In this document: positions 4,380 through 63,100 of the stretch, piece by piece
Layout of the letters: every line of letters begins with the position of its first letter
Position numbering within the stretch: position 1 is the first letter of the stretch
Assembly: GCA_016180855.1 (NCBI GenBank)
Contig: JACPAL010000009.1
Location: forward strand, 62,001 to 126,000
Direction: 5' to 3'
DNA: 64,000 nt
Source: Deltaproteobacteria bacterium
Lineage (GTDB): Bacteria; UBA10199; JACPAL01
Notes under the pieces: generated by a model
The model's input: the letters and a program-made list of their open reading frames with translations, nothing else
Database searches by the model: none
What the model was told of the DNA's origin: nothing
Program-made: the position numbers and the translations under genes

Positions 4380-5549
4380 ATGGTTGATGCACTATCGTTT
4401 CCATTCTCACTCGAAAAATTTGGACGTTTTCCGCTCGCTTCAATTCCACTTTCAGAATGGGATCAATCGGCAGAGGATCACCTAACAAAAGAGGGGAATA
4501 AGAATCTATGGAAGTTTATCAAAATTGGGGCGTTCGTTGGTATTGGTGCTTTTGGAATTAGGGGTCTTCTGAAGTGGAGTGGGGAGTTTGCAGAGGCGTC
4601 CAAGGTTTGGGGACAGCGGTGGAATTTAAGCCCGATGATGATCGGCATGACGTTGGGTGTCTTTGGGACCTCCCTCCCCGAGTTGATGGTTTCGATCATG
4701 TCGGCCGCCGTCGCGGAGGTGACGGATTCCGATACAGAATCTCTCGGCCAGTCGACCTGCCTCGGGGCCTCTGTTATTAGCCTGGGACTTGGACTTGGGG
4801 TGGGGGCGTTCTATTATTTTCGAAAGACAGGGGTTGCCATTCCGTTCAGCCGTCTTTTTCTTCCGTTTATAGGCACGCTCTGGGGTGGAATTTTATTGAC
4901 CACCTATGCTGCTTCGGATGGCCGGATTGACCGTTCGGAAGGATTGCTTCAGGTTGGCGCCTTTGCCGCTTTAGCAGCACTTTCCCTTGTGATGAACAGG
5001 CGGTTTCATCTCCTGCCGGAGAACTCCTTCCCTCTGTCAACCATTGCGAATCCAGGCAAGGTGATGATCAGGTCACTCTTGAAGATTCAGGCGGCCTCGG
5101 CCGCTGCCTCGGTTGCCGCTATTGGAATTTCTGACACACTCGGCATTGAGGAGTCGGTTATGGGCTCGGTTGTAACGGCGACGGCGACCGGTCTTCCGGA
5201 TATGGCATTTGTTTTGTCGCTCCTTCACCGTAATCCAGGTTTCGCAATCGGCAATCTGATAGGCCTGTTGCAGTTTAATCTGGTTTTTATCCCCGGTCTC
5301 GTTTCGATGGTACGCCCCTCAAAGGTCAGGCAGTCTATCTTTGAGGATCAAGGGCGATTTTTGCTTGGGCTCCTGGCTGTTTTTACCTGTTGTTCGTTGC
5401 TCGGACGGGTTAATCGGGTTGCGGGAACATCCTTTTTGGCGATCTACTCCCTTTTTGCCTTGAGCCAGATTTTGGCCGGGTGGCAGCAGGCGAGAAATTC
5501 ATTGCATTCGGCGCCCGAAGCTCTTCCTGCCAAGAAGAATGACCCCTAA
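4380..5549 (+). CDS. Sodium/calcium exchanger family (CaCA) membrane protein
   Basis: 389-residue integral membrane protein with about 10 hydrophobic segments and the two alpha-repeats of the Ca2+:cation antiporter superfamily. Repeat 1 (about residues 84-135) has G-T-S-L-P-E followed by LGASVISLGL. Repeat 2 (about 262-305) has ATATGLPD followed by G-N-L-I-G-L-L-Q-F-N. In the family, the conserved acidic residues of these repeats bind the cations. In repeat 2 the canonical Glu is Asp (GLPD), and the central loop is shorter than in Na+/Ca2+ exchangers of the YrbG type. The ion is not predictable. The Shine-Dalgarno is weak and the first 30 residues may be cytoplasmic. The 3' end overlaps the convergent carotenoid gene by 51 bases. 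Confidence 0.8.
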   Translation: MVDALSFPFSLEKFGRFPLASIPLSEWDQSAEDHLTKEGNKNLWKFIKIGAFVGIGAFGIRGLLKWSGEFAEASKVWGQRWNLSPMMIGMTLGVFGTSLPELMVSIMSAAVAEVTDSDTESLGQSTCLGASVISLGLGLGVGAFYYFRKTGVAIPFSRLFLPFIGTLWGGILLTTYAASDGRIDRSEGLLQVGAFAALAALSLVMNRRFHLLPENSFPLSTIANPGKVMIRSLLKIQAASAAASVAAIGISDTLGIEESVMGSVVTATATGLPDMAFVLSLLHRNPGFAIGNLIGLLQFNLVFIPGLVSMVRPSKVRQSIFEDQGRFLLGLLAVFTCCSLLGRVNRVAGTSFLAIYSLFALSQILAGWQQARNSLHSAPEALPAKKNDP

Positions 5550-6199
5550 GAAGATAAGTGAGCTGGAGAGACCAAGCGACCACTGCCTGATCCAAAAGGT
5601 GATGGCAAGGTTGAAGAGCATGATGGAGAGATAAAAAAGAGGTCCGAGAGCGGAGATGCGAAGAGGGGAGGCGGTTAAAGGCAACTTTTTCTCTACCGCT
5701 GCAAAAAGGCTGAAAATAATTAATCCCACGAAAAACCATCCCGCAAAATTGGAAAAGGGGACGCCAAAATAAATTCCGGGATGCTCGTAGTAAAAAATTT
5801 TTCCCAAAAACCATTGGTCTCCCCGAACAGCCAGTGGGTCGGTGACGATGTCGAGAAGGGTCATAAGTGTGGCAGATAGTACCAGAGATTGCCAATGCTT
5901 GGGCGGGTCCTGTCCCGTCGGAACCCTCCGACAGTACTCAACGCTCCTAGCCGTTCGCGTCTCCGTGCTGTCGGAGGAACCCGACGTGCCACCCGCCCTC
6001 ATTATGTGATGAGCCATCTCAAAGCTTGCATACGCCATGAACACATATGAAATGGAATCCCAGACCGGTACACCGGAGAGCACGAGCTCCCCTTTCATAT
6101 TCTCATAGACGCGCGATTCAGGGAGCAGATCAGGACAAACGATAGAAGAAAGAGGGCGACATACGGTCGTTGATGTAAGGTAATAAGCAGTGATTGCAT
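5499..6199 (-). pseudogene. Frameshifted carotenoid biosynthesis (CruF/DUF422-like) membrane protein
   Basis: The main part (from about 6130 down to 5499) has several transmembrane helices and the family signature T-L-L-D-I-V-T-D-P, then G-x-Y-F-G-V-P-F-S-N-F-A-G-W, typical of the CruF/bisanhydrobacterioruberin hydratase family. The family's N-terminal helix is in another frame: from ATG 6199 a 34-residue reading frame (MQSLLITLHQRPYV..., one hydrophobic helix) stops at 6095. The conserved E-x-x-G...T-G-x-P-F-G segment that should connect them is missing, which suggests a deletion with frameshift near 6100. A second peculiarity is a 98-bp palindrome at 5901-5998 read through as about 32 extra residues. 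Translation of the main frame alone could begin at Met 6098 or TTG 6206. Activity is doubtful. Confidence 0.75.
5901..5998. repeat. 98-bp nested palindrome inside the carotenoid gene
   Basis: Outer arms GGGCGGGT (5901-5908) and ACCCGCCC (5991-5998); middle arms CGTCGG (5916-5921) and CCGACG (5981-5986); inner arms CCTCCGACAG (5925-5934) and CTGTCGGAGG (5968-5977); 33-base loop. The protein frame runs through it as a Ser/Thr/Arg-rich insert between two membrane helices. It is unlike the other palindromes in the window. Confidence 0.8.
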
Positions 6200-6212
6200 G
6201 CTTCAAGGGCCT

Positions 6213-53129: not shown

Positions 53130-53252
53130 CAGGATGATGAGAAAGGTCCATCTGCGGCGTTGCCCGCTTCAACCACAATCCTCACGTACCGGGAAAGTAC
53201 GCTCCGGTTGTGGTCTTGCGGGCGCCTTGCATCTGGACCTTTCTCATCATCC
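53130..53252. repeat. Palindromic repeat, family of two, copy 1
   Basis: Outer arms CAGGATGATGAGAAAGGTCC (53130-53149) and GGACCTTTCTCATCATCC (53235-53252). The interior runs TCTGCGGCGTTGC ... CACAATCCTCACGTAC, 7-base turn, GTACGCTCCGG ... GCCTTGCATC. Copy 2 at 62975 is about 85% identical. It begins immediately after the stop of the zinc-motif gene. Confidence 0.9.
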
Positions 53253-53289
53253 TTTGTAGAAAGGGTTTGTTAATAACTGAGAGTTACTG

Positions 53290-61511: not shown

Positions 61512-62986
61512 GAATCGCGACACGGGAAGAGATCCTCAAGGCAGACCAGCTTGCTTCTACCAAATACAAGATTCCGGAGTCTCTCTTGATCGACAAGGCT
61601 GGAACGGGGGCGGCCGAGGTTGTCCTAAAAAAATTCCCTTCCCTCAAGCGTGTCCTCGTTGTGGCGGGAAAGGGAAAGAATGGAGGAGATGGCCGGATTT
61701 TCGCCAAACGGCTTAAAGAAAAGAGCATCGACTGCCATCTCTTGTCCTGGTTTGATTCACAGAACAACTGGAGACAGCTGATTCAGGACTCCGATCTGAT
61801 TGTGGATGCGCTCGTGGGGGTTGGTCTTTCAAAGCCGTTGAAAGGAAGCGAGAAGGAGCTTGTTGAAACGATCAACCAGTCATGCAAAAAAGTGGTGGCG
61901 CTTGATATCCCGTCGGGCCTGTCGGCCGATCAGGGAAGGGCTTGTGGTGTCTCCATTAGGGCCGATCTTACCTGTACCTTTGGACTGCCGAAGGTTGGGC
62001 TTTATATTGGGGATGGTCCTGATTACGCCGGTAAGGTCGTTTCGGTCGATATCGGTTATCCCTCCTCGCTTCTTGACGAGGTTGGAATTCGTGGACGGGT
62101 TATTTCACCTGAGGATTTCAGCTCTTTCTTAAGACCACGTCGTGCGGATAGTCACAAGGGGAGCTACGGCCATTTTCTTTTAGTGGGTGGATCGACAAAC
62201 CGCCTGGGGGCCCCTTTAATGGCGGCTCGGGCGGCGCTTCGGACCGGGGCAGGACTCGTGACGCTCGCGCTTCCTGATCGTTGTTATCAAAAGATTCCAC
62301 GTGGTCTTCTCGAGGTGATGTACGAACCGCTCCCTTCGAGTCCCGTGGGACGACTGACCGTCAAGGCGCTTAAACCGCTTGTTGATTTGATGGAGGAAAT
62401 GGGGTGCGTCGCGATCGGTCCGGGGCTCGGGGTCACTCCGGATATCCGTAAAATTGTGCTGGAGGTGATCAAAAAAGGAAATTCACCGGTTGTTCTGGAC
62501 GCGGATGCGATCAATGCCCTGGAGAGGGTCGTTGATGAACTGAGGCGAGTTCGCAAGCCTCTTGTTTTGACACCTCACCCGGGGGAGATGGGGCGGCTTG
62601 CCGGAAAGTCGTCGGCCGCCGTTCAGGAGGATCGCCTGGGGACCGCCAGAGATTTCGCAAAGCGATACGGTTGCCATCTCGTTTTGAAGGGGGCGGGAAC
62701 AATCGTTGCGACACCCGAAGGGGATTATTATGTGAACCCGACCGGAAATCCCGGCATGGCGACGGCCGGGATGGGGGATGTATTGACTGGCATGTTGGGG
62801 GCCCTTATTTCAGGGGTCTCAACCGGCGCAATGGAGGGGGCACTTCTTGAGGCGATTTTGGGTTCTGTGTACCTTCATGGGCTTGCGGGTGATAAGGTTC
62901 GCGGTCGACTGGGGGATCGTGGTTTTCTGGCCTCGGATGTTATTGAAGAGATTCCTCTTGCCTTTCGGGAATTGACAGGATGTTGA
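61508..62986 (+). CDS. nnr: Bifunctional NAD(P)H-hydrate epimerase / ADP-dependent dehydratase
   Basis: 492-residue repair enzyme for damaged NADH and NADPH. N-terminal YjeF_N epimerase domain: VAGKGKNGGDGRIFAKRL, VDALVGVG, LDIPSGLSAD. C-terminal carbohydrate-kinase-like dehydratase: HKGSYGHFLLVGGS, VTLALP, LTPHPGEMGRL, LKGAGTIVATPEG, and GMATAGMGDVLTGMLGAL. The final codons and stop (ELTGC-stop) lie inside the left arm of a palindromic repeat. Confidence 0.96.
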   Translation: MRIATREEILKADQLASTKYKIPESLLIDKAGTGAAEVVLKKFPSLKRVLVVAGKGKNGGDGRIFAKRLKEKSIDCHLLSWFDSQNNWRQLIQDSDLIVDALVGVGLSKPLKGSEKELVETINQSCKKVVALDIPSGLSADQGRACGVSIRADLTCTFGLPKVGLYIGDGPDYAGKVVSVDIGYPSSLLDEVGIRGRVISPEDFSSFLRPRRADSHKGSYGHFLLVGGSTNRLGAPLMAARAALRTGAGLVTLALPDRCYQKIPRGLLEVMYEPLPSSPVGRLTVKALKPLVDLMEEMGCVAIGPGLGVTPDIRKIVLEVIKKGNSPVVLDADAINALERVVDELRRVRKPLVLTPHPGEMGRLAGKSSAAVQEDRLGTARDFAKRYGCHLVLKGAGTIVATPEGDYYVNPTGNPGMATAGMGDVLTGMLGALISGVSTGAMEGALLEAILGSVYLHGLAGDKVRGRLGDRGFLASDVIEEIPLAFRELTGC

Positions 62987-63100
62987 TAAAGGCCCATCTG
63001 CGGCGTTGCCTGCTTCGCCCACAATCCTCACGTACCTACAAGTACGCTCCGGTTGCGCTCTTGCAGGTGCCTTGCATCTGGACCTTTCTCAACATCCTGT
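62975..63100. repeat. Palindromic repeat, family of two, copy 2
   Basis: Outer arms ACAGGATGTTGA (62975-62986) and TCAACATCCTGT (63089-63100). The interior matches copy 1 at 53130. The arm difference (GATGTTG here against GATGATG) is matched on the other side (CAACATC against CATCATC), so pairing is kept. Confidence 0.9.

Follow-up and report, generated by a model that had tools for sequence, protein, structure and literature searches.

The carriage of palindromes in frame within protein genes is a habit best known from Rickettsia, and the family described here appears to practice it in a different bacterial group and in essential enzymes. When a Rickettsia palindromic element (RPE) lies in gmk, the host protein is translated with the insert and is active. 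According to PMC2229807, which reviews Ogata 2000 and 2002, RPE are palindromes of ~100 bp that are found in and between genes, lie in frame in conserved proteins and form a long stem-loop, and the review cites Ogata 2005 for a Wolbachia counterpart. With reference to Claverie and Ogata 2003, PMC6649704 reports that RPE arms lose identity over time.

Other small palindromes also enter coding sequence. GTAG/CGTC-tagged REPs are palindromic, and some are intragenic and code for 20-30 residues (PMC3733652). The bacterial MITEs RUP, ERIC, NEMIS and YPAL are small non-autonomous repeats, some of which lie in frame in genes, and the targets of YPAL span or adjoin dyad symmetry (PMC2229807). Nematomorph mitochondria have perfect inverted repeats in translated genes, the arms of which stay identical, and template switching has been proposed for them (PMC6649704).

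Here we compare with these systems a nested palindrome in a cruF-like gene of the window, by which we mean the whole 64-kb stretch of DNA that was analyzed. We consider it likely, with a probability of roughly 0.85, that this palindrome is a diverged member of a family of small, mobile, non-autonomous palindromes (80-98 bp) with a hairpin that would be moved in trans, translated, selfish and tolerated by the proteins that receive it.

Results

Structure of the palindrome

An initial annotation described nested arms of 8, 6 and 10 bp and a 33-nt loop at 5901-5998, and all of these are present, with exact coordinates (Table 1). The gene-strand RNA of the palindrome folds with an energy of -63.3 kcal/mol, compared with -40.8 ± 3.3 after dinucleotide shuffling (z -6.85), and none of 200 shuffled sequences folded as well. 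Likewise, the DNA fold of the palindrome gives a z of -5.1, and among 120-nt stretches of the window the one with this hairpin was found to fold best. A scan of the window with Rfam gave nothing reaching the gathering thresholds.

Table 1. Features of the palindrome and of its host gene, in window coordinates (R1 is the covariance model described in the text)
Feature	Position	Strand	Evidence
Palindromic repeat element, 98 bp (GGGCGGGTCCTGTC...GTGCCACCCGCCC)	5901..5998	+, family orientation	R1 match with exactly these ends
Outer arm, left, GGGCGGGT (partner 5991-5998)	5901..5908	+	Perfect 8-bp inverted repeat
Outer arm, right, ACCCGCCC	5991..5998	+	Perfect 8-bp inverted repeat
Asymmetric internal loop, CCTGTCC facing TGCC	5909..5915	+	Family signature CCTGTC/GCC, invariant in copies across the class
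Middle arm, CGTCGG (partner 5981-5986)	5916..5921	+	Sequence
Middle arm, CCGACG	5981..5986	+	Sequence
Inner arm, CCTCCGACAG (partner 5968-5977)	5925..5934	+	10 bp, perfect
Inner arm, CTGTCGGAGG	5968..5977	+	10 bp, perfect
Terminal loop, 33 nt, motif TACTCAAC (relatives: GTGCTCACC)	5935..5967	+	Family comparison
CruF-like ORF, 235 aa, PF04240 carotenoid-biosynthesis protein	5499..6206	-	Open through the element; N-terminus not native
Native CruF N-terminus, MQSLLITLHQRPYVALFLLSFVLICSLNR, other frame, from ATG 6199	6111..6199	-	DNA alignment to L003 and three-frame translation

A family of palindromes in related genomes

The window genome is referred to as G000, its nearest relative, which belongs to the same family, as G001, and a member of the same order as G003. 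R1 is a covariance model constructed from seven copies, six of them from G001 and one from G003, with the window copy left out. R1 finds the window copy at 5901-5998 with a score of 50.5 bits (E 3.2e-7) and over its full length (model positions 1-80). The two ends of the element hold the constant parts of the family, GGGTCCTGTC and, opposite it, G(C/T)CACCC, which are also kept in most of the distant class members examined. The stem sequence of the window copy differs from that of the G001 copies. Many near-identical, dispersed copies are present in G001 and G003, and the pattern GGCGGGTCCTGNCCCG occurs at 9 sites in G001. A total of 40 loci were fetched: 23 from G001, 12 from G003, 2 from G005 and 3 from G019.

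R1 matches were observed in 20 of the 46 genomes of the class and in none of 14 genomes outside it. A pattern scan of 84,980 species genomes returned 2 matches in one deltaproteobacterial MAG, both confirmed by R1, and the viral contigs searched contained no family copy. Pattern matches in Celeribacter, Acetobacteraceae and Arthrobacter from the same set of species genomes were not confirmed by R1. As far as sampled, the family is confined to one class of uncultured deltaproteobacteria-like bacteria. Two matches of the pattern GGCGGGTCCTGNCCCG (L051 and L053, G004:C11) lie 2.3 kb apart and share a similar GC-rich repeat sequence without the family hairpin.

When the element is used as a BLASTN query against its own genome, only the one intact copy at 5901-5998 is returned, together with a weak fragment in hemW. 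The hemW match region spans 69 bp (BLASTN 76% over 51 bp, E 0.005; weak R1 score) and, judged by its sequence, is probably a decayed family copy; at this point of hemW, G003 and G005 have a short loop, and in G001 and G004 the loop contains other palindromes. R1 found no further copy in ~278 kb of stretches from the window genome, and the pattern GTCGGAGGN{0,3}TTCCGAC matches only the element at 5901-5998. The family is nearly extinct in the window genome, where the copies are worn, whereas those of G001 are fresh. The initial annotation held that absence of any other copy and presence of the same insert in all homologues would speak against its account; instead, there are copies in relatives as well as the probable decayed copy in hemW, and insert-free homologues exist.

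The cruF host gene

As originally proposed, the insert sits in a CruF-like gene between two helices: the ORF matches PF04240, and in an alignment of 17 homologues the inter-helix loop of the window CruF is ~33 codons longer than that of the short-loop homologues. Many of the homologues have a short inter-helix loop and no insert, among them L011, L012, L014, L015, L016 and L019, and comparison with these PF04240 homologues indicates that the palindrome in cruF is an insertion. In the cruF gene of G001, a family copy 82 bp long lies in the same place and in the opposite orientation, and the same CruF loop holds strong palindromes of unrelated sequence in G003, G016 and G027 (loci L004, L006 and L009). 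An AlphaFold model of G001 CruF has a mean pLDDT of 87.8 with low confidence only at the insert, which is predicted to be a disordered linker between helices. Searching the PDB for folds similar to the CruF model gave no significant match.

The palindrome had also been described as read through as protein. The frame is indeed open through the element, but at ~6111, where the native N-terminal frame ends, 103 bp of G001 cruF are absent from the window genome. This deletion relative to G001 means that cruF is frameshifted upstream of the element in this assembly, and the description therefore needs correcting, since an open frame alone does not show that this copy is translated. The open frame of the element at this locus would fit either a gene that was broken recently or an assembly error. 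The carotenoid gene of the window may be dead or misassembled.

Copies inside protein genes

Open frames of at least 240 aa span 35 of the 40 fetched copies, with location in a gene scored by such spanning ORFs, so that L102, L121, L125 and L129, which start close to the element, may be misjudged. The remaining 5 copies lie between genes, at gene ends or are unassigned, and none is in a visibly broken gene. From their sequences, we take the host genes to include those for YggS, HemB, HisF, MnmE, TruA, IleRS, RsmE, TilS, AccC, CcmF, QueG and PurL. On this reading of the genes, the family sits mostly inside essential or housekeeping protein genes and leaves their frames unbroken.

Searches with 17 of the host regions found, within the same bacterial order, orthologues that match on both flanks. 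The net gain relative to insert-free orthologues is exactly 27 codons in both HemB and MnmE, and it amounts to ~27 codons in IleRS, 26 in HisF and 31 in TilS; several other loops are too variable to tell. The insertion sites presumably correspond to the switch II region of MnmE and to a position beside the HemB metal site. All 26 of the 80-, 83- and 95-bp copies lie in genes, compared with 7 of the 11 copies of the 82-bp subfamily (Fisher p 0.005), and one extra base turns 80, 83 and 95 bp into 81, 84 and 96. Most frames of the element are without stops, and the stop-bearing frames are used by no in-gene copy, a result that partly follows from the scoring by spanning ORFs.

Arms and flanking DNA

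Among 37 distinct copies, 18 of 31 pairs have changed on both sides, and 0 of 500 shuffles reached the pairing or the covariation, although the alignment was fitted to R1 and the result therefore leans towards the model. Pairing was lost when partners were slid along the alignment. The outermost 3 bp vary by site, yet they are paired in 83-96% of copies, and in the copies listed the feet read NNN(C/T)GGGT...ACCC(G/A)NNN. Pairing extends into host DNA, with 78% of G001 copies paired at position 4 versus 34% expected, and permutation gives p values for outward pairing of <0.001 in G001 and 0.0005 in G003/G005. Perfect flank-pairing runs reach up to 14 bp in G001 and at least 15 bp in all three G019 copies. 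No direct target duplication was detected: mismatched flank pairs show perfect direct repeats of 2-8 nt about as often as the true flanks do. The copies L129, L130, L131, L070, L071 and L073 in distant class members have flanking inverted repeats of ~20 bp that are perfect or nearly so and of site-specific sequence.

The HisF site is filled in both G003 and G005, and its outer arms differ between the two genomes and pair within each. Either template switching or insertion favoring dyads would account for the likeness of the arms. The TilS copy (82 bp, net 93) fits ~11 bp copied, and the MnmE copy (80 bp, net 81) fits almost none. Most DNA-level alignments of empty sites have diverged too far to place the insertion precisely, and the arms may reflect either inverted flank copying or pre-existing dyads. 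Mobility is judged here by copy number and similarity.

Other palindromes in the same protein loops

In HemB, the insert of G001 belongs to this family, and G000 and G004 have other inserts. Other inserts are also found in QueG and an ArgE-like protein of G000, in AccC of G003 and G005 and in FolC of G001. Strong folds were checked for the hemB, queG and argE inserts of G000, and the corresponding sites of relatives hold either a short loop or a different insert again. Thus, the proposal that this genome hosts several coding-compatible palindromes is borne out by its hemB, queG and argE-like genes, and it holds beyond this genome, since other inserts recolonise orthologous loops in relatives.

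The queG locus of G000 (L151), the gene of a conserved queuosine enzyme, contains at ~1680-1800 a very large nested palindrome that codes for ~40 residues and whose sequence is unlike the present family. The peptide GAYCNTP(L/P)Q occurs in loops of two unrelated G004 proteins (L164 and L141; ArgE-like and AccC), and this recurrence may point to another coding repeat family. A second family of palindromic repeats, unrelated to the first (GGTCCAGATGCAAGGC...GGAGCGTAC...GTACGTGAGGA...), is present in the window at 53141-53260 and 62981-63100, and elsewhere in L028 (~17351), L033 (5028) and L039 (11344). Its copies lie mostly in short open frames and are thus probably intergenic. The palindrome in cruF belongs to a different family from this second one, whose copies at 53141 and 62981 are presumably the octamer-loop elements from which the initial annotation had separated it.

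Discussion

We favor the interpretation that the element at 5901-5998 belongs to a mobile family that spreads as a folded single strand, a hairpin that would be mobilized in trans by an enzyme. Since its net size is commonly 81, 96 or 99 bp, which are whole codons, and most of its frames are stop-free, insertions in protein loops would be translated as a flexible peptide, be tolerated and survive selection. Either template switching or selection acting on the hairpin would restore the identity of the arms. Such an element would be selfish DNA, with no host function needed. We also put forward, tentatively and as the less probable version, that this is a new kind of hairpin mobile element. In that case only the core (CGGGTCCTGTC...GCCACCCG) would be copied, insertion or template-switch repair would build the outer arms from host DNA, the net sizes of 81, 96 or 99 bp would suit codons, and unrelated palindromes would recolonise the same loops class-wide. 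With outer arms constructed from host DNA, each copy would be enclosed by an inverted duplicate of its flank, specific to that locus.

Mobile bypassing elements exist in some yeast mitochondria, and insertions in conserved enzymes, including what we read as the MnmE switch II region and the neighborhood of the HemB metal site, would be easier to accept if the element were removed from RNA as a mini-intron or excised hairpin, or bypassed by ribosomes, so that the host protein never contained it. Frame and stops would not matter to such an element, yet all in-gene copies keep frame and avoid the frames with stops, and genes are depleted of the 82-bp form, which breaks the frame. These properties favor translation and make excision or bypass very improbable. 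The conserved structure and the coupled changes of the arms are also what would be expected of a hairpin maintained by a host function such as mRNA stability, translation pausing or regulation. However, the genes that hold copies are unrelated, the position of the copies varies and both orientations occur; the copies also differ between close genera and are nearly absent from the window genome. Their intragenic placement tracks frame compatibility rather than gene type, and we regard a host function as unlikely.

As a small palindrome with an asymmetric internal loop, the element resembles sequences of the REP type, and there are Y1 transposase genes in the window genome (1) and in G003 (3), as might be expected of a REP mobilized by a RAYT. 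It is very unlikely that the element is one, since it has neither a GTAG nor a CGTC foot and PF01797 finds no match in G001, which has the most copies, or in G005, making a resident RAYT unlikely there. The window copy could instead have arisen locally, by template switching in a variable loop, and resemble the family by convergence. The CruF loop is hypervariable and holds unrelated palindromes in other relatives, and the window copy differs from the G001 copies in its stem and is inverted relative to the copy in G001 cruF. In addition, G001 RluD contains, where G003 has a full copy, a 42-bp palindrome that looks like a head-to-head duplication of one element half. Against this, the R1 E value of 3.2e-7 and the signature CCTGTC/GCC internal loop tie the window copy to the family, and the many near-identical copies of G001 and G003 show dispersal, so that we give a local origin very little credence.

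With fresh copies in G001, worn copies in the window genome and orthologous sites both filled and empty, the mobile family makes two old questions testable by comparison: how an element moves when neither a transposase nor a target duplication is visible, and how proteins accommodate 27-33 residues of foreign origin. Annotators also gain a signature for odd protein inserts in these genomes.

Among the known systems, the nematomorph palindromes are native coding sequence, whereas the present family consists of dispersed inserts. Compared with GTAG/CGTC-tagged REPs, the family is longer, lacks the GTAG/CGTC foot and has no resident RAYT in the copy-richest genome. It differs from the bacterial MITEs in having inverted flanks instead of a direct target duplication and in being found mainly in genes. 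From RPE it is set apart by the bacterial group, by a common net size of 81 bp, and by the strongly coupled evolution of its arms and their extension into the flanks. Nevertheless, both are dispersed, multi-copy palindromes, slightly shorter here (80-98 bp) than the ~100-150 bp of RPE, and both lie in frame in conserved protein genes (here 35 of 40 copies, with insert-free orthologues). By this analogy of architecture, the family appears to work like RPE.
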